Made by a program: the position numbers and the translations under genes
Part shown: in pieces, positions 22,358 to 35,231 of the stretch
How positions within the stretch are numbered: position 1 is the first letter of the stretch
Layout of the letters: every line of letters starts with the position of its first letter
Notes under the pieces: model-generated
Told to the model about the DNA's origin: nothing
What the model saw: only the letters and a program-made list of their open reading frames with translations
The model's database searches: none
Virus record (IMG/VR): IMGVR_UViG_3300047169_000098
Coordinates: 1-35,231 of that record
DNA from: a virus
Length of the DNA stretch: 35,231 nt
Strand: one strand, 5' to 3'

Positions 22358-23086
22358 TCACTTGATCAATCTCGGCGGTGTGAACTTTCCGCACACCCGT
22401 CCCACGCGGGATACCTTGGCCGCATCGACGTTCAGCGGCTCGTACTTTTGATTGAGCGGCACAAGCTTCAACCGCCCTTCACCCATCATGTAAACGCGCT
22501 TGAAAGTGGCCAGCCCGTCGCCGCTGCCATCCAGCTGCACCATCGCATCCTCACCATCGCGCAGATCTGTCGTTGCGATGTTCTGGAGAATGACGAACTC
22601 TCCTGGCAGATAGTTGGGAGACATTGAATCGCCTACGATCTCCAGCGCGTAAACCCCTTCGGCACCGGCAAACTTAATGGGCAACCGCTTGCCGTTGTCG
22701 GCATCCCAATCCTCATAACTTTCCACCATGCCACCCGCTGCCACGCGGCCCATGATAGGAATGCCGTTTTCCTGATCACCAACGGGAATCAGGTTCGGAT
22801 CGCCCCGGTTCGTACGCCCCTGCGCAGCGTGCTCCCATTCGATGATCCGGTCATCCGCTATTGTATCAATCTCACCCCGCTCCAGACGGTCAAGGTCTTT
22901 GACGCTGACCTTGAGCGTGCGAGCCAGCCAGAGCCGCGTCGACCGCTCGATGCCAGCAAACGAACGCTCGGAAAATATTCGATTGACCGTGCGCAGCGAG
23001 ACCCCGGAAACCTCGGCCAGTTCCGTTTGAGAGCGAATGCCTACCAGTTCCATCCGGTGCAGCAGCCAGGACAAAACATCTGCCAT
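22358..23086 (-). CDS. S24-family (LexA/CI-type) phage repressor
   Basis: From the ATG at 23086 the product is 242 aa; the frame extends to 23194, but that part would run through the promoter region. The N-terminal helix-turn-helix has SQTELAEVSGVSLRTVNRIF. The C-terminal S24 domain has GRVAAGGM, the usual Ala-Gly cleavage bond (about 117/118), GDSMSPNYLPGEFV with the catalytic Ser (154), and ATFKRVY with the catalytic Lys (196). By analogy with LexA and CI it should cleave itself when RecA is activated, linking induction to DNA damage. It diverges from the Cro-like gene and heads the immunity operon. Confidence 0.92.
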   Translation of the reverse strand: MADVLSWLLHRMELVGIRSQTELAEVSGVSLRTVNRIFSERSFAGIERSTRLWLARTLKVSVKDLDRLERGEIDTIADDRIIEWEHAAQGRTNRGDPNLIPVGDQENGIPIMGRVAAGGMVESYEDWDADNGKRLPIKFAGAEGVYALEIVGDSMSPNYLPGEFVILQNIATTDLRDGEDAMVQLDGSGDGLATFKRVYMMGEGRLKLVPLNQKYEPLNVDAAKVSRVGRVCGKFTPPRLIK

Positions 23087-23125
23087 CGCCACGCAGATTA
23101 GCAACGCGACACAAGGCATGCCAAG

Positions 23126-23147
23126 AAAATCCGAATAAAATCCGAAT
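23126..23147. promoter_or_regulatory. Tandem 11-bp operator-like repeat
   Basis: AAAATCCGAAT occurs twice in direct succession, one helical turn apart, seven bases before the early -35 box. It is a likely binding site of the repressor or Cro. Confidence 0.6.
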
Positions 23148-23153
23148 CTTCTC

Positions 23154-23183
23154 TTGACTACATGCCAAATGGCGTTATATATT
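23154..23183 (+). promoter_or_regulatory. Early promoter (sigma70-type)
   Basis: TTGACT (23154-23159) and TATATA (23176-23181, spacing 16) or TATATT (23178-23183, spacing 18) make a strong promoter reading toward the Cro-like gene. The predicted start of transcription falls at or next to the ATG at 23188, so the transcript may be leaderless. Confidence 0.7.
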
Positions 23184-23217
23184 CCACATGTCACGCCACG
23201 TGACGTACCAAATGGCT
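23162..23217. promoter_or_regulatory. Operator-like repeats in the early promoter
   Basis: CCAAATGGC occurs at 23165-23173, between the -35 and -10 boxes, and again at 23208-23216. Between them is the dyad GTCACG-CCA-CGTGAC (23190-23204), which overlaps the Cro start. Proteins bound here would block the promoter. Confidence 0.55.
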
Positions 23218-23418
23218 CGCCAAGTTGATAACCTCACTGCTGCCCGCCGGGATGTCTGTCTGACCGTAGACGAACTCGCCCGGTCTGTCGGCGTGCATGT
23301 TTCGACGGTGGTGGATTGGTCCAAAGGGCGAACTCGCCCGCAGGTCCGGTTTTTAAAGCCCTTGGCGAAGAGCCTGAAAAAAACCGTCGCGGAAGTGAAC
23401 GCGATGTTCGGAACTTGA
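23188..23418 (+). CDS. Cro-like helix-turn-helix regulator
   Basis: This 76-aa protein consists of a single XRE-type HTH: LTVDELARSVGVHVSTVVDW is the central helix pair, followed by RPQVRFLKPLAKSLKKTVAEV. It diverges from the S24 repressor, as Cro or Ner does in Mu-like phages. No ribosome site precedes the ATG at 23188, and the promoter is so close that the message may begin at the start codon; an ATG at 23212 is an alternative. It probably represses the early and repressor promoters. Confidence 0.8.
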   Translation: MSRHVTYQMARQVDNLTAARRDVCLTVDELARSVGVHVSTVVDWSKGRTRPQVRFLKPLAKSLKKTVAEVNAMFGT

Positions 23419-23434
23419 TCCGGCTCACGCGCCT

Positions 23435-23474
23435 GCCGGGCGGCTTCACCGCCGCCCGGCCGCGTGGGCTTTTT
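23435..23474 (+). terminator. Hairpins with T-run after the Cro-like gene
   Basis: A 9-bp stem GCCGGGCGG / CCGCCCGGC (23435-23443, 23452-23460) is followed by a short GCCC/GGGC alternative stem and five T at 23470-23474. It could attenuate early transcription between Cro and the CsrA-like gene. Confidence 0.5.
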
Positions 23475-23648: not shown

Positions 23649-23677
23649 TTGATGAAAGTTTTACCGGAGAATCAGGG

Positions 23678-24016
23678 ATGCTAGTTCTCACCCGAAAAGA
23701 AGGTCAGCAGATCACCTGCCAGACCACCCGCCCGAATGGTGATGATGAAAAAGTCACCATCACGCATGTCGGCTACCAGCCGTACATCGATCTTCTCTCC
23801 CTCACCATCAAAGGCCCCGGCTACTTTTTGAGCTGCTCGATCGAGCGCGGTTGCCGGGTGGCCGCAAAGATCAACGGCCAGTGGATGGAGATCGAGTACT
23901 CCACATCGCACAACCTTGGCCAGAAGATCGGCATCATCGCCGACAAGTCGATCGACATCCGCCGCGATGATGTCGTTTCGATCAAGCCGGCGGCGGAAAT
24001 GGCGGTGGCATCGTGA
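23678..24016 (+). CDS. Extended CsrA-like RNA-binding protein, 112 aa
   Basis: The N-terminus MLVLTRKEGQQI is the CsrA signature, and residues 81-103 (GQKIGIIADKSIDIRRDDVV) match the second half of CsrA (RIGI.AP..V.V.R.E). Leu4, Arg6 and the Arg at 96, the equivalents of RNA-binding residues L4, R6 and R44, are kept. CsrA is about 60 aa; here some 45 residues with strands (DLLSLTIKGPGYFLSCSIE, KINGQWMEIEY) are inserted before the last strands. GGAG lies eight bases before the ATG. TCAGGGATGC across the start resembles the CsrA consensus site, so autoregulation is plausible. CsrA represses or activates translation by binding GGA sites in mRNA. The phage target is unknown. Confidence 0.7.
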   Translation: MLVLTRKEGQQITCQTTRPNGDDEKVTITHVGYQPYIDLLSLTIKGPGYFLSCSIERGCRVAAKINGQWMEIEYSTSHNLGQKIGIIADKSIDIRRDDVVSIKPAAEMAVAS

Positions 24017-24192
24017 ACCGCAAACGCATTGAGCGTCCACGTCATTGCCCACGATGCAAGACGGTTGTGAACGTGATCAGAGAGGGCAAGTGCCGCAATC
24101 TCTGCTACCCAACCCATCGCATGCCGAGCAAGGTGCAACGCGATCTTCTGGATTCAAAGATTTCGATCCCGCGGAAGGCGGTGGCGTCATGA
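24013..24192 (+). CDS. Tiny zinc-finger protein, 59 aa
   Basis: The GTG start at 24013 overlaps the stop of the CsrA-like gene (GTGA) and the stop overlaps the next start (ATGA). Residues Cys12, Cys15, Cys27 and Cys31 (CPRC, then CRNLC) suggest a zinc-binding knuckle. The rest is basic (MNRKRIERPRH) with a helical C-terminal part. It is one of several tiny zinc proteins in the early operon. Function unknown; DNA or RNA binding is possible. Confidence 0.6.
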   Translation: MNRKRIERPRHCPRCKTVVNVIREGKCRNLCYPTHRMPSKVQRDLLDSKISIPRKAVAS

Positions 24193-24482
24193 GGGAAATG
24201 CAAATTGCAGAATGCAGAATGCAGAATGAAGAGCTGGTTGACGAGGCTTGCGAGCGTGATCGTTACGAGGACGATTTCCCGGCAACTTGCTTCTGCCCCT
24301 ATTGCTCCCGCCAGGTGAACGTGCGAACCAATGTGCCGGCGTCCGATCCCTACCTTGAACTGCACGAATCCGGGGGCGGGACGTTCTGCGAAGGCAGCTG
24401 CCTGTCGGTGGCGTTCATTGATGATCTGCTCGTCGACGCAGTCCGTGATCTGTTTTCAGAACAGAGGGCGGTGGCGTCATGA
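24189..24482 (+). CDS. Small zinc-ribbon protein, 97 aa
   Basis: The ATG at 24189 overlaps the previous stop as ATGA. The first codons are made of GCAGAAT heptamers (24199-24227). The body has FCPYCSRQVNV and a second cysteine pair near GTFCEGSCLSV, a probable zinc ribbon, then a helical end (LVDAVRDLFSEQ). The C-terminus ends AVAS like its two upstream neighbours because the same 16-base junction sequence is used. Function unknown. Confidence 0.6.
   Translation: MREMQIAECRMQNEELVDEACERDRYEDDFPATCFCPYCSRQVNVRTNVPASDPYLELHESGGGTFCEGSCLSVAFIDDLLVDAVRDLFSEQRAVAS
24199..24227. repeat. Heptamer array (GCAGAAT family)
   Basis: Three exact GCAGAAT units (24207-24227) follow a degenerate one, inside the first codons of the 97-aa gene. 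The same family occurs on the opposite strand at 25744-25786. Confidence 0.75.
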
Positions 24483-24721: not shown

Positions 24722-25056
24722 TCCTCCTCAACAAACAACCCATCGACGAAACCAGCGCGCACGTGGTGGAACTATTCAATAAGCACGTGGTCAAGGTGCA
24801 TCCGATGGCCAGCGAGAAATCGCTGCGGCCTGACATTCACACCACTGTAGTGGTGGAGATGTTCGACACCAGCGATGCGGCCCTGTCGTTTGCCCAGAAG
24901 CTGAACAAGGCCAAGCACGGCCACGTCTATCGGATCGAATACGGCCCCAAGGGTCCGGCACTGAAAGACCTGGGATCAATCAAAGCAGCAGCAGCAGCAG
25001 CAGCAGCAAACGTCGCGCCGCTGTTTGACAATTCGCGGATCGGAGTGATGCGATGA
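24718..25056 (+). CDS. Early-operon protein with a polyalanine tract, 112 aa
   Basis: I do not recognise this protein. It begins MILLNKQPIDETSAHVVELF, has alternating strands and helices (TTVVVEMFDT, DAALSFAQKLNKA), and carries eight alanines near residue 90-97 encoded by (GCA)8 at 24985-25008. It is coupled on both sides by ATGA overlaps. The perfect trinucleotide repeat makes length variation between relatives likely. Confidence 0.6.
   Translation: MILLNKQPIDETSAHVVELFNKHVVKVHPMASEKSLRPDIHTTVVVEMFDTSDAALSFAQKLNKAKHGHVYRIEYGPKGPALKDLGSIKAAAAAAAANVAPLFDNSRIGVMR
25036..25056 (+). repeat. Duplicated translation-start cassette, copy 1
   Basis: CGGATCGGAGTGATGCGATG plus A recurs exactly at 25179-25199. 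Each copy ends one gene and starts the next, carrying its ribosome site (GGAG) and ATGA junction. Confidence 0.8.
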
Positions 25057-25199
25057 AGGACTCTTCCTGCATGCACTGCGGTCGGCTCATGCACCCTCGG
25101 GCGTTGCCATGGCACCAACAACGATGCAAGGCGAACCCCGCGAGAACGCCCACAAAGAAGGAGCAATTGAAAAGTCAACGGATCGGAGTGATGCGATGA
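25053..25199 (+). CDS. Tiny zinc-knuckle protein, 48 aa
   Basis: The gene starts at the ATG in the first cassette and stops in the second, overlapping both neighbours by ATGA. It encodes SCMHCGRLMHP and WHQQRC, so Cys6, Cys9, His21 and Cys25 could bind one zinc. The C-terminal part is basic (KANPARTPTKKEQ). Its last residues RIGVMR are those of the preceding gene because the junction is duplicated. Function unknown. Confidence 0.55.
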   Translation: MKDSSCMHCGRLMHPRALPWHQQRCKANPARTPTKKEQLKSQRIGVMR

Positions 25200-25582: not shown

Positions 25583-26095
25583 ATGTCAACCACCTGCTCA
25601 CTTCCCCTTCCCCTCAGCCACGCTCAGACCGAGCAGGGCTGGTGCCCGCAGTGCGAGGGGATCATTCCCCAGGGCAACATCACGCTGACCAACAAGGCCA
25701 GCACCGGCCTGGGCAGCCATCGCCGCCAGCATGTGGAAGGCGGTCTGATTCTTCGTTCTGCATTCTGCATTTTGCACTCTGCATTTTCTTCCATGACCGA
25801 ATCCCAATACATCATCGAACGCTCCTCGCCGATCGAGCTTCGCGACCTGCATCGCATGGGCGTTGCGTTGCCTCATCACCTGCTAGCCAAGATGGAGCGC
25901 GACACCGGCCCCCAGCTGACGCTGAAGGCCGAAGCAATCCGCGAAGGCCGATTCACCCGCGTGCCGGGACGACGAACGCACACACCAGTCTGCCCCGCCC
26001 AGGTGGCCGGGAAGGAGAATGGCAAGGACGCTGCCGGCAAGGATGCTGCCGGCCGCCTGCGCGTGGCAGACTCAAAACGGGGAGGCAAGCGATGA
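25583..26095 (+). CDS. Probable fusion of two small genes before the transposase
   Basis: The open frame encodes 170 residues. The first 55 have a CPQC pair (GWCPQCEGIIPQGNITLTNK), half a zinc ribbon. Then a GCAGAAT-type heptamer array is read as ILRSAFCILHSAFSS, after which MTESQYIIERSS begins a second protein-like part (ATG at 25793) with a helical region and a Lys/Ala-rich tail containing KDAAGKDAAG. I suspect that two genes were joined when the array landed between them and removed the first stop. The end overlaps the transposase start as ATGA. Functions unknown. Confidence 0.5.
   Translation: MSTTCSLPLPLSHAQTEQGWCPQCEGIIPQGNITLTNKASTGLGSHRRQHVEGGLILRSAFCILHSAFSSMTESQYIIERSSPIELRDLHRMGVALPHHLLAKMERDTGPQLTLKAEAIREGRFTRVPGRRTHTPVCPAQVAGKENGKDAAGKDAAGRLRVADSKRGGKR
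25744..25786. repeat. Heptamer array (GCAGAAT family, inverted)
   Basis: TCTGCAT-type units (reverse complement of ATGCAGA) run through 25744-25786, in the opposite direction to the array at 24199-24227. Confidence 0.7.
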
Positions 26096-28125
26096 ACGCA
26101 AACGCGCTGTCGATCCCCGCCCCGATCGGCGTGGTCTGGATCGACCTTGAAACCGCCGCCGAGCGATCCGGCAAGAGCGTTGGCCATATCCGCCGGCTCT
26201 GCGGCGATCGCTGGATGGGCGAAGGGCTGGCCAAGCTGGAACAACCCGCCGGTGGCGGCAAGAGCAGCTGGTTCGTGCGCGAGGATGCCGACCCCGGTTT
26301 CTCTAGGGTGAAATTCGCCGAGCAGCTCACCAAACAGTTCGATATGCGAACGGTGAGCACCAAGGCCCGCAACAAGGCCACCGAGCGCCAGCGCATCGTG
26401 CAACTGTGGCAGGCGGATGTAGCCGCCGGCCGGCAGCTGCGGGTGCCCGAAACCCAGATCACCGCCAAGTTCATCGAGCGGATGAAGATTGAGGAAGGCA
26501 AAAACCTTTCCCGTGCCACGCTCTTCAACTGGCAGCGCGCCGCCCGCGATGGCATCCAGGGCCTGATCAATGTATATGGCAACGGAGGCACCGGCAGCGA
26601 GATCGAGGCCCCTGATCCGTTCCTGGAAGCGGTCAAAAGATTCTGGCTGCGCGAGAGCCGGCCGCCGCTGAAAACCTGCTACGATTTTGCCGTTCGCCAG
26701 GCGAAGATCGAAGGCTGGGCGGTCTGCAGCTTCAAAACCATTCAGCGGCGGATCGACACCCTGCCTCAGCAGCTGGTCATTAAAAAACGCTACGGCGAAA
26801 CCGCCTTCGTCAACCAGGTGCTTCCGCCGGCCCGGCGTGACTATCGGTCGATCGACTCTAACAGCTGGTGGTGCTCGGACCATCACCAGTTCGATTGCTG
26901 GGTCCTGGTCGGAAAGGACGAAAAGGGCAAGCCCAAATACGCCCGCCCCTGGATCACCGGCTGGGAAGACCTGCGCAGCCGAAAGATTGTCGGCTGGCAC
27001 ATCTTCGCCCACGATCCCAACCAATCGACCATCCTCCTATCCCTGCGGTCGGGCTGCCTTGCCCATGGCGTGCCCCAGCACGTCTATATCGACAACGGCA
27101 AGGATTATGACTGCTACACCCTCCAGGGTGTGACCAAGGCCCAGCGGCAGCGAACGATGGCCGGCCAGCGTGCCGTTGTGCGCCGGCGGATCAAGGTGCA
27201 GGTGGACGGGATGGAAGTGGGTGGCGTTCTCGGGGCATTGGACATCAAGCTCACCCACGCCATCGCTTTTAACGCCAAGGCCAAGCCGATCGAGCGTTTC
27301 TTCAATACCGTCTGCAACCGCTTCACTAAATTTGTGGACACCTACTGCGGCCGTAATCCCCAGGAGCGGCCCGAGAATCTGCCCGACAAGATGGGCAACG
27401 CGCTCACGATTGAGGAATTTGCTGATCGGTTCGACACCTGGCTGGAAGCGGATTATCACGAGCGCGTTCATGGCGGCGATGCGATGGACGGCCTGACACC
27501 CAACGCCGCCTTTGAGCAATTCATGGTCCGCCGCCGCGTCGCTCGCGAGGAAGACCTGCAGCTGCTCATCGCCCGCACCAGCAAGCCGATTACCGTCGAC
27601 CGTGAGGGAGTCATCTGGCGCGGCATCCGATACGGCAAGGGGGATGCCGCGTTGTTCCCGTACTTCAAGAAAAAGGTGTTTCTGCGGATTGACCCCAGCG
27701 ACATCTCCTGCGCCGCCGCCTTCACCGAAGATGACCGGTTTATCGCGTGTCTTGCCGCGAACTGGGATCTGCCGTTTGGGGCGACCGATGAGGAATTCCG
27801 CCGCGCGGAACGCGATCGCAAGAACACGCGCGAGTTGACCAACCGGTACCTGAAGCTCGGACCGCAGCGCCGCCGCGCTGATGTAATGGAGACCATGGCG
27901 CTCAATCGTGCCGATGATGCCCGCAAGCAGCTACCGGCCCCCGGTTTAATCCCCGTTCGAACGTCCCTCGAGGGACAATTCATTACCGCAGAGGCGATGC
28001 AGCCCAGAGAACAGCATCGGCCAAAAATGATCGACATGGTGGCGGCGGCGGGCGACCTGGGTGCCGGCGCATTTGGGTCCAGTGGAAGTTTTAAGATGGC
28101 TGACTTTTTTGAGGACGATCAATGA
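26092..28125 (+). CDS. DDE transposase (MuA-like)
   Basis: This 677-aa protein starts at an ATG with GGGAGG upstream. It cuts and joins the phage ends during integration and replication. The N-terminal part has a helix-turn-helix (ETAAERSGKSVGHIRRL) and end-binding helices. The RNase-H-like core carries SDHHQFD (Asp263), YIDNGKDY (Asp334) and AKPIERFF (Glu401), matching the D-D-E of MuA. A beta-barrel-like segment and a C-terminal helical tail, which in MuA binds MuB, follow. Its stop overlaps the MuB-like start. Length and order agree with MuA (663 aa). Confidence 0.93.
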   Translation: MNANALSIPAPIGVVWIDLETAAERSGKSVGHIRRLCGDRWMGEGLAKLEQPAGGGKSSWFVREDADPGFSRVKFAEQLTKQFDMRTVSTKARNKATERQRIVQLWQADVAAGRQLRVPETQITAKFIERMKIEEGKNLSRATLFNWQRAARDGIQGLINVYGNGGTGSEIEAPDPFLEAVKRFWLRESRPPLKTCYDFAVRQAKIEGWAVCSFKTIQRRIDTLPQQLVIKKRYGETAFVNQVLPPARRDYRSIDSNSWWCSDHHQFDCWVLVGKDEKGKPKYARPWITGWEDLRSRKIVGWHIFAHDPNQSTILLSLRSGCLAHGVPQHVYIDNGKDYDCYTLQGVTKAQRQRTMAGQRAVVRRRIKVQVDGMEVGGVLGALDIKLTHAIAFNAKAKPIERFFNTVCNRFTKFVDTYCGRNPQERPENLPDKMGNALTIEEFADRFDTWLEADYHERVHGGDAMDGLTPNAAFEQFMVRRRVAREEDLQLLIARTSKPITVDREGVIWRGIRYGKGDAALFPYFKKKVFLRIDPSDISCAAAFTEDDRFIACLAANWDLPFGATDEEFRRAERDRKNTRELTNRYLKLGPQRRRADVMETMALNRADDARKQLPAPGLIPVRTSLEGQFITAEAMQPREQHRPKMIDMVAAAGDLGAGAFGSSGSFKMADFFEDDQ

Positions 28126-31184: not shown

Positions 31185-31856
31185 ATGACTTTGGAATTTG
31201 AGCGTTATCGTGCCCTTCGACGTGAGGGCGTTTCAATGCTGGCAGAGCTCCCGGATCGCTCTGTTGATGCTTTTGTGACTGATCCGCCGTATGGGATCGA
31301 GATGAATCTCCACACGCTGCCAGGACGCGACTGCCGCATCGCCGGCGACGGCCGTGCTGAAGCCAGAGCGCTTTGGCGCGCGTGGATTCCCCAGGCGTTT
31401 CGGGTGGCGAAGGACAACACCGCACACGTGGTCTTCGGCACCTACAAATCGCCCTGGATGTTCGATCTGCTCAACAGCTGCTTCCGCGTGAAGGGCTGCA
31501 TTGTATGGGACAAACGCCGAATGGGCCTTGGCTACCACCTTCGCCAGCAGTGGGAGATGGCATACTTTGTCGTCAAGGGCAGGCCGCCGGTGCGCGACAA
31601 TGCTGTTCGTGATGTCTGGTCAATTACTAAGCTGACCAAGCCTGCGCACCCGTGCCAGAAGCCGGTGGAACTGTTGCAAAGGGCAATACGCCTCGTGAGT
31701 GATCCGGGTATGCTGATCTGCGATCCTTTTGCTGGCGTCTTCAGCACTGGCGTGGCCGCGATGGCAGAACGCCGGCGTTTTATTGGATCAGAGATCGACG
31801 TGAGGCATTACCGGCTGGGACTTAAACGAATAAAAGAGGCGATCAATGAGACCTAA
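31185..31856 (+). CDS. Beta-class DNA methyltransferase
   Basis: The 223-aa protein starts at an ATG with AAGGA five bases upstream. DPPYGI (33-36, motif IV) precedes HPCQKP (155-160) and ICDPFAGVFSTG (DPFAG 180-184, motif I), so the order is that of beta-class N4-cytosine or N6-adenine methyltransferases. It is short for the class and lacks a large target domain. No restriction gene is beside it; it is probably a solitary enzyme that protects phage DNA. Confidence 0.88.
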   Translation: MTLEFERYRALRREGVSMLAELPDRSVDAFVTDPPYGIEMNLHTLPGRDCRIAGDGRAEARALWRAWIPQAFRVAKDNTAHVVFGTYKSPWMFDLLNSCFRVKGCIVWDKRRMGLGYHLRQQWEMAYFVVKGRPPVRDNAVRDVWSITKLTKPAHPCQKPVELLQRAIRLVSDPGMLICDPFAGVFSTGVAAMAERRRFIGSEIDVRHYRLGLKRIKEAINET

Positions 31857-33026: not shown

Positions 33027-33317
33027 GGTCTAAGTTCGGCTGGCGTGGCAGCGTCGCCGCGATCTCAGTCTAGGTTTTGCACGGATGCCGGCAAACGCTT
33101 GTAAGTCACGGCCCCACCGAGCCGCAACCGTCTTTCTATATCCGCCTACGTCCGTCTAAGTCCGCCTGTCCCTTTACATGCATGACCCCCTCTGGCGGGG
33201 TCAAAAACGGGGTTGGTGATGCAACGTGCAACGTCCGGGCGGCAAAACGATGCATCAACGTTGCATCGCCAAAATCCACTTGCCACATCGCCAAGATTCG
33301 CCGATATTGCCCGCCCT
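32981..33317. other. Intergenic region between prophage genes and transketolase
   Basis: No gene is supported in these 337 bases. They contain several copies of TCTAAG/TCTAGG, three 10-base units at 33141-33170, and the hairpin GACCCC-CTCTG-GGGGTC-like at 33184-33202. The prophage right end probably falls here or just to the left. Confidence 0.6.
33141..33170. repeat. Three tandem decamers
   Basis: TCCGCCTACG, TCCGTCTAAG and TCCGCCTGTC follow each other without gaps, one per helical turn. Confidence 0.6.
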
Positions 33318-35231
33318 ATGGCCACCGAAAACTTCCCCATCGATTTGTCCAAGCTCAAGCCCCTTTCCTTGAGCGTCAAGCAAACCTCATTAACCGACGA
33401 GCAGAAGGCAACGCTGCTGCACAACATCCAGTTGTGTCGCGATGCGATTGTCTTCTTCACCGCCTTGGCCGGTGCCAAGGGTTTGAGCGGTCACACTGGC
33501 GGAGCGTACGACACCGTACCGGAAGTGATGATCGTCCGCGCGTTGATTGCCGGCGGTGCGCCGATCGTGCCGGTCTTCTACGATGAAGCGGGGCATCGCG
33601 TGGCCACGCAATATCTGCTCAGCGTGTTGAACGGCGCAATGCCGGCCGAAAAACTCCTGCACTATCGCGAGTACAACCAGGGCCTTCCCGGTCATCCCGA
33701 AAAAGGCCTGACGCCCGGCGTGGAATTCGCCAGCGGACGCCTCGGTCACATGTGGGCCTTCTGCAACGGCGTCGCCATGGCCAACCCCGGTAAGGCCGTG
33801 GTGGTGCTGGGTTCCGACGGATCGCAGATGGAAGGCGACAACGCCGAAGCCGCCCGCCTGGCGGTTGGCAAGCAGCTCAACGTAAAGGTGCTGGTCGACG
33901 ACAACAACGTCACGATCAGCGGGCATCCGCAAACCTACATGTCCGGCTACGACCTGACCCGCACCCTGTCGGGTTACGGCTATCAGGTCGACACCACCAT
34001 GGGTGAAGATATCGACGCACTGTTCGTCGCCCTCGCCAAGGTGTTCGACAACGATCGCCCCCACGGTCTGGTGATCAAGCGCGAGATGGCCCCCGGCATC
34101 GAAGGGGCCGAAGGATCACCCCACGCGCACGAAGTGTTGAAGGTGGAAACGGCCGTCAAATACCTGGAAAAACGCGGCGGATACGAAAAAGCCATCGAGA
34201 TCCTCAAGGCCGGCAAACCCGACAAGAGCCCGCTGGTCTACAAAGGCTCCAGCGGTGTCGGCAAGAACCGCGACGATTTCGGCAAGATCATCAACTCGAT
34301 TCTCGACGGCATGAGCGAAGCCGACCGCATCGCCAGCGTCCGCGTCTTCGACAACGACCTGGAAGGCTCCTGCGGCACCAACCATATCCGCAAGGCCCAC
34401 CCCGAAGTCTTCGTGCAGGGCGGTATCATGGAGCGCGGCAACTTCTCCGCCGCGTGTGGATTCGGTTCCTCCAAGGGCAAGCAGGGCATCTTCGCCACAT
34501 TCAGCGCTTTCCTGGAAATGTGCATCAGCGAAATCACGATGGCTCGCCTGAACTTCAGCAACGTGATCGCCCATTTCAGCCACAGCGGTTGCGACGACAT
34601 GGCCGACAACACCTGCCACTTCGGTATCAACAGCATGTACGCCGACGGCGGGGTCACCCCCGGTCATGGTGACGACACCACCCGCTTGTATTTCCCCGCC
34701 GATCAACACCAGTTTGCTGCGTGCCTGAAAAAGATCTTCCCCGACCCCGGCCTGCGGTTCCTCTTCAGCAACCGCGCCCCGGTGCCCGATCTGCTGGACG
34801 ACGCCGGCAAGCCGATCTACAAGGATCAACCCTTCGAGCCCGGCAAGGACTACATCGTCCGCGAAGCCGGCGCCGGCCAGGGGTACATCGTCTCTTTTGG
34901 TGAAGTGGTATACCGTGCCCTCGATGCCGTGCTGACCCTGAAAGAGCAGGGCAAACAAGTCGGCCTGATCAACAAGCCCACGTTGAACGTGATTGACGAA
35001 GCGATGATGAAAAAGCTCGCCGCCGCCCCGTGGGTCCTGGTCGCCGAAGGCTGGAACGTAAAGACCGGCTTAGGCAGCCGCTTCGGCAGCCACCTGCTGC
35101 AAGCCGGCTTCAAAGGCAAATACAACCACATCGGCGTGAACAAGGAAGGCTCCGGCGGCCTGTGGCAGCAAATCGGCTATCAAGGCCTGGACCCCGCGGG
35201 AATCCTCGCGGCGGTGAAGGCCCTGTCGTAA
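33318..35231 (+). CDS. Transketolase (host gene)
   Basis: This 637-aa thiamine-diphosphate enzyme moves two-carbon units between sugar phosphates in the pentose phosphate pathway. The ThDP motif is GSDG (165-168) to DDNN (194-197). GHTGG (His59) and GHPEKGLTPGVE (His126) fit the substrate site. GGIMERGN supplies the Glu372 that activates the cofactor. GVEFASGRLG is the usual transketolase pattern. The ATG at 33318 lacks a clear ribosome site; the longer frame from 33213 reads intergenic sequence. The stop is at the window end. It shows no phage relation and marks the host side of the junction. Confidence 0.85.
   Translation: MATENFPIDLSKLKPLSLSVKQTSLTDEQKATLLHNIQLCRDAIVFFTALAGAKGLSGHTGGAYDTVPEVMIVRALIAGGAPIVPVFYDEAGHRVATQYLLSVLNGAMPAEKLLHYREYNQGLPGHPEKGLTPGVEFASGRLGHMWAFCNGVAMANPGKAVVVLGSDGSQMEGDNAEAARLAVGKQLNVKVLVDDNNVTISGHPQTYMSGYDLTRTLSGYGYQVDTTMGEDIDALFVALAKVFDNDRPHGLVIKREMAPGIEGAEGSPHAHEVLKVETAVKYLEKRGGYEKAIEILKAGKPDKSPLVYKGSSGVGKNRDDFGKIINSILDGMSEADRIASVRVFDNDLEGSCGTNHIRKAHPEVFVQGGIMERGNFSAACGFGSSKGKQGIFATFSAFLEMCISEITMARLNFSNVIAHFSHSGCDDMADNTCHFGINSMYADGGVTPGHGDDTTRLYFPADQHQFAACLKKIFPDPGLRFLFSNRAPVPDLLDDAGKPIYKDQPFEPGKDYIVREAGAGQGYIVSFGEVVYRALDAVLTLKEQGKQVGLINKPTLNVIDEAMMKKLAAAPWVLVAEGWNVKTGLGSRFGSHLLQAGFKGKYNHIGVNKEGSGGLWQQIGYQGLDPAGILAAVKALS

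Follow-up and report, generated by a model that had tools for sequence, protein, structure and literature searches.

What becomes of the CsrA dimer when a single chain carries both recognisable ends of the family, separated by an extra stretch of protein? The question is raised by P0001, a CsrA-like protein of 112 amino acids encoded on a viral DNA of 35,231 bases (IMG/VR record IMGVR_UViG_3300047169_000098, analysed at its full length and referred to as the window). Work on CsrA has treated it as an obligate homodimer with two sites, and the dependence of its action on bridging two GGA motifs is normally probed with engineered proteins. On balance, P0001 is probably a single-chain CsrA pseudo-dimer, composed of two fused units with one canonical GGA-binding site, which would serve the phage as a post-transcriptional regulator.

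The gene and its genomic setting

The open reading frame is present exactly where the original prediction had placed it and has the predicted size, with its ATG at 23678, its TGA at 24014-24016, and a Shine-Dalgarno-like GGAG 8 nt upstream of the ATG; the translation reads MLVLTRKEGQQITCQTTRPNGDDEKVTITHVGYQPYIDLLSLTIKGPGYFLSCSIERGCRVAAKINGQWMEIEYSTSHNLGQKIGIIADKSIDIRRDDVVSIKPAAEMAVAS. The record is a Mu-like prophage, as had been proposed, with genes for a MuA-type transposase, an AAA protein in the MuB position, GemA, an S24 repressor and a Cro-like HTH protein, all of which were found, and with head, portal, terminase and tape-measure genes on the other side of the record. The placement of the gene "just after Cro" holds only in part: the Cro-like gene lies upstream, but a gap of 260 nt with a strong terminator-like hairpin intervenes, so that the two genes may not share a transcript (Table 1). 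The right end of the window is occupied by a transketolase gene (33213-35231), which runs to the end of the record and is 63% identical to planctomycete genomes; taken as host DNA flanking the prophage, it makes a planctomycete the probable host.

Table 1. Positions in the window of the CsrA-like gene, its putative parts and neighbouring features
Feature	Position	Strand	Basis or remark
Putative single-chain CsrA-like protein P0001, 112 aa	23678..24016	+	stop codon counted in
Putative copy 1 β1-β2, residues 1-17, MLVLTR motif (L4, T5, R6), half of the putative retained RNA site	23678..23728	+	Pfam stretch 1-29, AlphaFold2 strands 2-6 and 11-17
"Inserted" stretch, residues 18-68, predicted strands 23-34, 39-45, 50-56, 60-65	23729..23881	+	AlphaFold2, profile test P=0.005, parallel in family A5
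Putative copy 2 β3-β5, residues 68-99, GxxAxxxIxIRR (A88, I92, I94, R96), other half of the putative retained RNA site	23879..23974	+	CsrA profile 83-99, AlphaFold2 strands 68-78, 81-87, 93-96
RBS GGAG and, at the start codon, GGA of CAGGGAUG; candidate element for autoregulation	23666..23680	+	unconserved
Divergent CI/S24-type repressor	22358..23194	-	PF00717 61.9 bits
Cro-like HTH regulator	23188..23418	+	PF01381 27.9 bits
GC hairpin resembling a terminator, with T-run, between the Cro-like and CsrA-like genes	23422..23474	+	hairpin 23422-23469
Zinc-ribbon-like protein, downstream of P0001	24189..24482	+	36% over 53 aa, E 2e-10 vs relative
MuA-type transposase	26047..28125	+	PF09039, PF02914, PF09299

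The start of the gene might hold an autoregulatory site, with the GGAG and the GGA of CAGGGAUG as possible elements. Autoregulation via CAGGGAUG was set aside as a candidate: the motif occurs once in the window against 1.7 copies expected, which is chance level, and the GGA elements are not conserved in a related phage. The early region further contains an N6/N4 DNA methylase gene (31185-31856) and two kinds of repeated gene junction. The same 16-nt stop-start junction, GGCGGTGGC(A/G)TC(A/G)TGA, closes three consecutive small genes (24001-24016, 24177-24192 and 24467-24482), all of which end in -AVAS, with 0.2 matches expected by chance; these repeats look like a cassette or a duplicated gene junction. 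A different junction repeat of 21 nt, CGGATCGGAGTGATGCGATGA, is found in identical form at 25036-25056 and 25179-25199, at two successive gene ends (-RIGVMR).

Relationship of P0001 to the CsrA family

Members of the CsrA/RsmA/RsmE family (PF02599) are strand-swapped homodimers with chains of about 60 amino acids. The profile search that had been suggested as a check places P0001 above the curated cut-off of this family (28.1 vs 27 bits), in two stretches at both ends of the protein; residues 1-29 correspond to profile positions 1-23, and residues 83-99 match the profile as well. Both ends are thus recognisable, as originally noticed, and L4, T5, R6 and R96, the last being the equivalent of CsrA R44, are in place. 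In addition, A88, I92 and I94 are kept, which completes the set of RNA-contact residues expected of the family. The scores against the NCBIfam equivalog models TIGR00202 and NF002469 (12.8 vs 70.1 and 17 vs 73 bits) are far under their cut-offs, so that P0001 is to be regarded as a divergent relative and not as a CsrA orthologue. It shares with CsrA/RsmA/RsmE the N-terminal MLVL[ST]R strand, the C-terminal GIxAPxxVxIxR strand and the GGA-contact positions, but differs in its 112 amino acids and nine predicted strands, where one five-stranded unit of about 60 amino acids per chain is the rule, and in the two units and the single canonical RNA site predicted per chain. The extra stretch between the ends exists, although it comprises about 52-55 residues (roughly 16-68) and not the 45 or so first estimated.

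A search with the MuA transposase led to related phages, one of which, IMGVR_UViG_3300037231_000288, encodes a homologue of P0001, designated P0004, in a gene also located upstream of the MuA transposase; directly after the P0004 gene lies the relative of the zinc-ribbon-like protein to which Table 1 refers. P0004 is 43% identical to P0001 over residues 1-100 (E 5e-18; 43-45% identity for the pair), scores 30.5 bits against Pfam CsrA in two stretches, over the cut-off of 27, and has the same layout, residues 73-101 corresponding to profile positions 18-46. P0001 is therefore no accident of one sequence. A third close member was not found in IMG/VR with P0001, the two-sequence alignment, P0004 or a middle-to-end alignment as queries, nor were further members found in a GTDB-based genome collection, in 392 and 397 planctomycete genomes, in GenBank phages or in PLSDB plasmids; these searches were pattern-based or sampled and do not, as a consequence, prove the phage family to be rare.

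Among the other MuA-related phages, one (G005) encodes a divergent CsrA-like protein of 64 amino acids, P0003, which stays under the Pfam cut-off; its gene (L012:979-1170, minus strand) adjoins a DNA methyltransferase. Fifty further MuA-related phage records contained no CsrA. In another related Mu-like phage, a stand-alone DnaA domain IV (PF08299, 74 bits; L005:7669-7986) is encoded just upstream of MuA. Weak CsrA matches in the phages Phabio and Possum were judged to be due to chance, and PTXU04 and MT837633 each match one CsrA unit only.

Predicted fold and the nature of the middle stretch

The best AlphaFold2 model of P0001 (pLDDT 74.8, pTM 0.67) has nine strands, at residues 2-6, 11-17, 23-34, 39-45, 50-56, 60-65, 68-78, 81-87 and 93-96; it is the only confident one of five, the other four having a pLDDT below 40, with an alignment of two sequences as input. 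The extra stretch sits between β2 and β3, the position at which RsmN/RsmF of Pseudomonas aeruginosa (PMC3791407; PDB 4K59, 4KJI, 4KRW), the nearest precedent, carries an insert. In RsmN, as is predicted for P0001, β1-β2 at the start of the chain pair with β3-β5 at its end (RsmN aligns to residues 1-88 of the A5 model described below), and R62 corresponds to R96. The insert of RsmN, however, is a helix of 16 residues, and RsmN remains a two-site dimer, whereas the middle of P0001 comprises about 50 residues, is predicted to form strands and has nothing of a short helical insert.

Residues 18-68 are read as β3-β4 of a first copy followed by β1-β2 of a second, with degenerate site residues, and, according to the model, the middle is unlikely to be a foreign insert. 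Compared with CsrA β3-β4, it scores better than shuffled sequences (z 3.3, P 0.005), the corresponding value for P0004 being marginal (P 0.07), and HMMER returned no significant CsrA match in the middle of the pair; the duplication signal in the sequence of P0001 is weak. A PDB search with the P0001 model retrieved generic β-sandwiches, with no CsrA chain among the matches listed, a result that is little informative because the solved CsrA chains are strand-swapped. In the BFVD the same model matched seven viral proteins of 81-118 amino acids with probability 1.00, one of which (114 amino acids) is annotated "Carbon storage regulator"; the entries retrieved include A0A6J5RUQ1, A0A6J7WXS8, A0A088F6N9, A0A6G5YEX0, A0A6G5YD98 and A0A2H4PHU8. 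As the strands of the extra stretch resemble those of a second CsrA unit, the chain is probably its own dimer, and the model lends moderate support to the interpretation of the nine strands as two fused CsrA units with one strand lost. It had been expected that the insertion would either alter the dimer or add a binding surface; the dimer must indeed change, but a second canonical surface appears to have been lost and none added.

Two-unit CsrA proteins in planctomycetes and in a Pseudomonas phage

A scan of 149 planctomycete genomes for the CsrA family revealed CsrA in 54 of them, with up to 17 matches per genome, and yielded short proteins in which a single reading frame matches CsrA twice. 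Two genomes (G055, G076) hold the unusual number of up to 15-17 matches each, and in three loci (L138, L139, L020) an N-terminal CsrA domain is followed by response-regulator receiver-like sequence. The two-match family, called A5 here since no published name for a planctomycete single-chain CsrA was found, is chromosomal, comprises 83-92 amino acids and occurs in eight planctomycete genomes. Residues 1-52 correspond to CsrA 1-53, with a degenerate last strand, and residues 48-86 to CsrA 9-47, where the sequence match starts past the first strand.

The A5 model has the same nine strands (pLDDT 87.2, all five models 78-87). It aligns with CsrA/RsmA/RsmE chains over residues 38-90 (50-53 aligned; Z 4.3-4.9, which is middling) and with RsmN/RsmF over residues 1-88 (Z 4.5-4.7, likewise middling; rmsd 2.2-2.5, 32-33% identity), and these alignments span nearly the whole of the short CsrA and RsmN target chains. 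In terms of the model, the first two and last three strands of A5 may be read as an RsmN-like half, with the middle supplying the other half. The order β1-4, β1'-5' can be assigned one-to-one between the A5 model and the one confident P0001 model of five. In a profile-profile comparison, the phage pair and A5 align over their full length (1-100 to 1-88, E 2.5e-5), and the two models have seven PDB neighbours in common among those listed, with an identical match at rank 1. A5 resembles P0001 in its nine strands of the same order, in the invariant R6 and last-strand arginine and in the degenerate second site, but it has shorter loops, is chromosomal, reveals both copies by sequence and shares about 17-23% identity with the phage protein.

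A further case is provided by Pseudomonas phage vsMR (OR687460, 22204-22479), where an open reading frame of 92 amino acids matches Pfam CsrA with 58 bits in two clear stretches. Like P0001, this protein is phage-encoded and has two CsrA stretches in one chain; it differs in its unrelated host group, in an identity of about 16% and in a clearer CsrA signal. Convergence, and not common descent, may account for the layout that the A5 and phage proteins have in common.

The putative RNA site and a proposed mode of action

RsmN recognises the GGA bases through backbone groups of β5 (A54, V58, I60, R62) and through L4 and L6 of β1 (PMC3791407). The equivalent residues of P0001 are L4, R6, A88, I92, I94 and R96, which are kept or conservatively replaced in P0004. 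Across all aligned single-chain proteins, phage, chromosomal and vsMR, the positions M1, R6, G85, I86 and R96 (P0001 numbering) are invariant, and each of the three groups keeps contact residues in both the N-terminal (R6) and C-terminal (R44 equivalent) strands. Their second site, in contrast, appears to have degenerated: copy 1 is without an Arg44-bearing β5, and the position of R6 in β1 of copy 2 is taken by I55 in P0001 and by a leucine in P0004 (by alignment), from which the loss of the second RNA site is deduced.

It can be envisaged that one P0001 chain, in the fused order β1-β2-β3-β4/β1'-β2'-β3'-β4'-β5', builds the two-sheet sandwich that CsrA makes from two chains, and that one canonical GGA-binding site is made up jointly of L4, T5 and R6 in the N-terminal strand and A88, I92, I94 and R96 in the last. 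The two sites bridged by a CsrA dimer are 10-63 nt apart (PMC3856055); with one canonical site per chain, P0001 could bind GGA without such bridging. Expressed from the early region, it would occupy single GGA sites in leaders or regulatory RNAs, repressing or protecting transcripts, and would compete with host CsrA without two-site bridging. It might in this way redirect host mRNAs, as was first suggested. For P0001 itself, we infer the monomeric state, RNA binding, the targets and the competition with host CsrA.

Alternative explanations

The arrangement seen in RsmN/RsmF offers a different account, in which P0001 is a CsrA protomer with an unrelated β-rich insert between β2 and β3, forming a homodimer that has two RNA sites and gains a further surface from the insert. 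The extra stretch lies exactly where RsmN has its 16-residue helix (PMC3791407), HMMER does not recognise it as CsrA, and a second chain would provide the second RNA site. Yet the four strands predicted for the middle follow a CsrA-like order, its sequence weakly matches CsrA β3-β4 and aligns column by column with families whose middle is clearly CsrA, and the A5 model already completes the sandwich in one chain; a foreign insert in a two-site homodimer is therefore held to be unlikely, and a fused pair of units remains the preferred reading.

What such a chain does may be viewed differently as well. P0001 might be an antagonist of host CsrA, whose main effect would come from contact with that protein, or from sequestering Csr regulatory RNAs, instead of from regulating the translation of particular mRNAs. 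In favour of this, a chain with one site would be able to compete although it does not bridge; the transketolase of host type beside the prophage suggests that the host is a planctomycete, and CsrA is found in many members of that phylum (54 of the 149 genomes scanned, with up to 17 matches in one). The residues retained, on the other hand, are the RNA-contacting ones, and neither an interface for host CsrA nor a regulatory RNA has been identified, so that this role is considered rather improbable. Still further from expectation is a protein that has kept the CsrA fold, lost RNA binding and taken on a different function, perhaps structural or linked to DNA. The score barely over the Pfam cut-off, the failure of the equivalog models and the replacement of P37 of CsrA by D89 would agree with it, but few positions are as well conserved between P0001 and P0004 as those that correspond to RNA contacts, which also recur in the other families, and there is little reason to expect that RNA binding was given up. 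The single-chain pseudo-dimer with one GGA-binding site is accordingly retained as the favoured description of P0001.

Biological significance

Ordinary phage-encoded CsrA has been described in 30 phages (PMC7366521) and is common, with 46 loci in IMG/VR and about 95 GenBank records; these proteins are phage-borne like P0001, but have standard length and one CsrA unit per chain. Tandem, fused or single-chain CsrA was not encountered in the literature searched, which included few subscription papers, and while the ordinary form is already known, the fused one-site form appears to be without a published description in that literature. A wider generalisation, put forward tentatively and with more doubt than confidence, is that the single-chain, one-site CsrA constitutes a separate architecture that recurs, with examples in Mu-like phages of planctomycetes, in a chromosomal lineage of the same phylum and in a Pseudomonas phage, and that it is a monovalent GGA-binder by which phages might reprogram or blunt the host Csr system. 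If this is true, phages and planctomycetes share, or converge on, a monovalent CsrA, and a natural dimer-fused chain with one site would provide a ready-made test of the need for bridging in CsrA action. P0001 itself represents a concrete candidate for post-transcriptional regulation by a phage in a phylum with few well-characterised phages.
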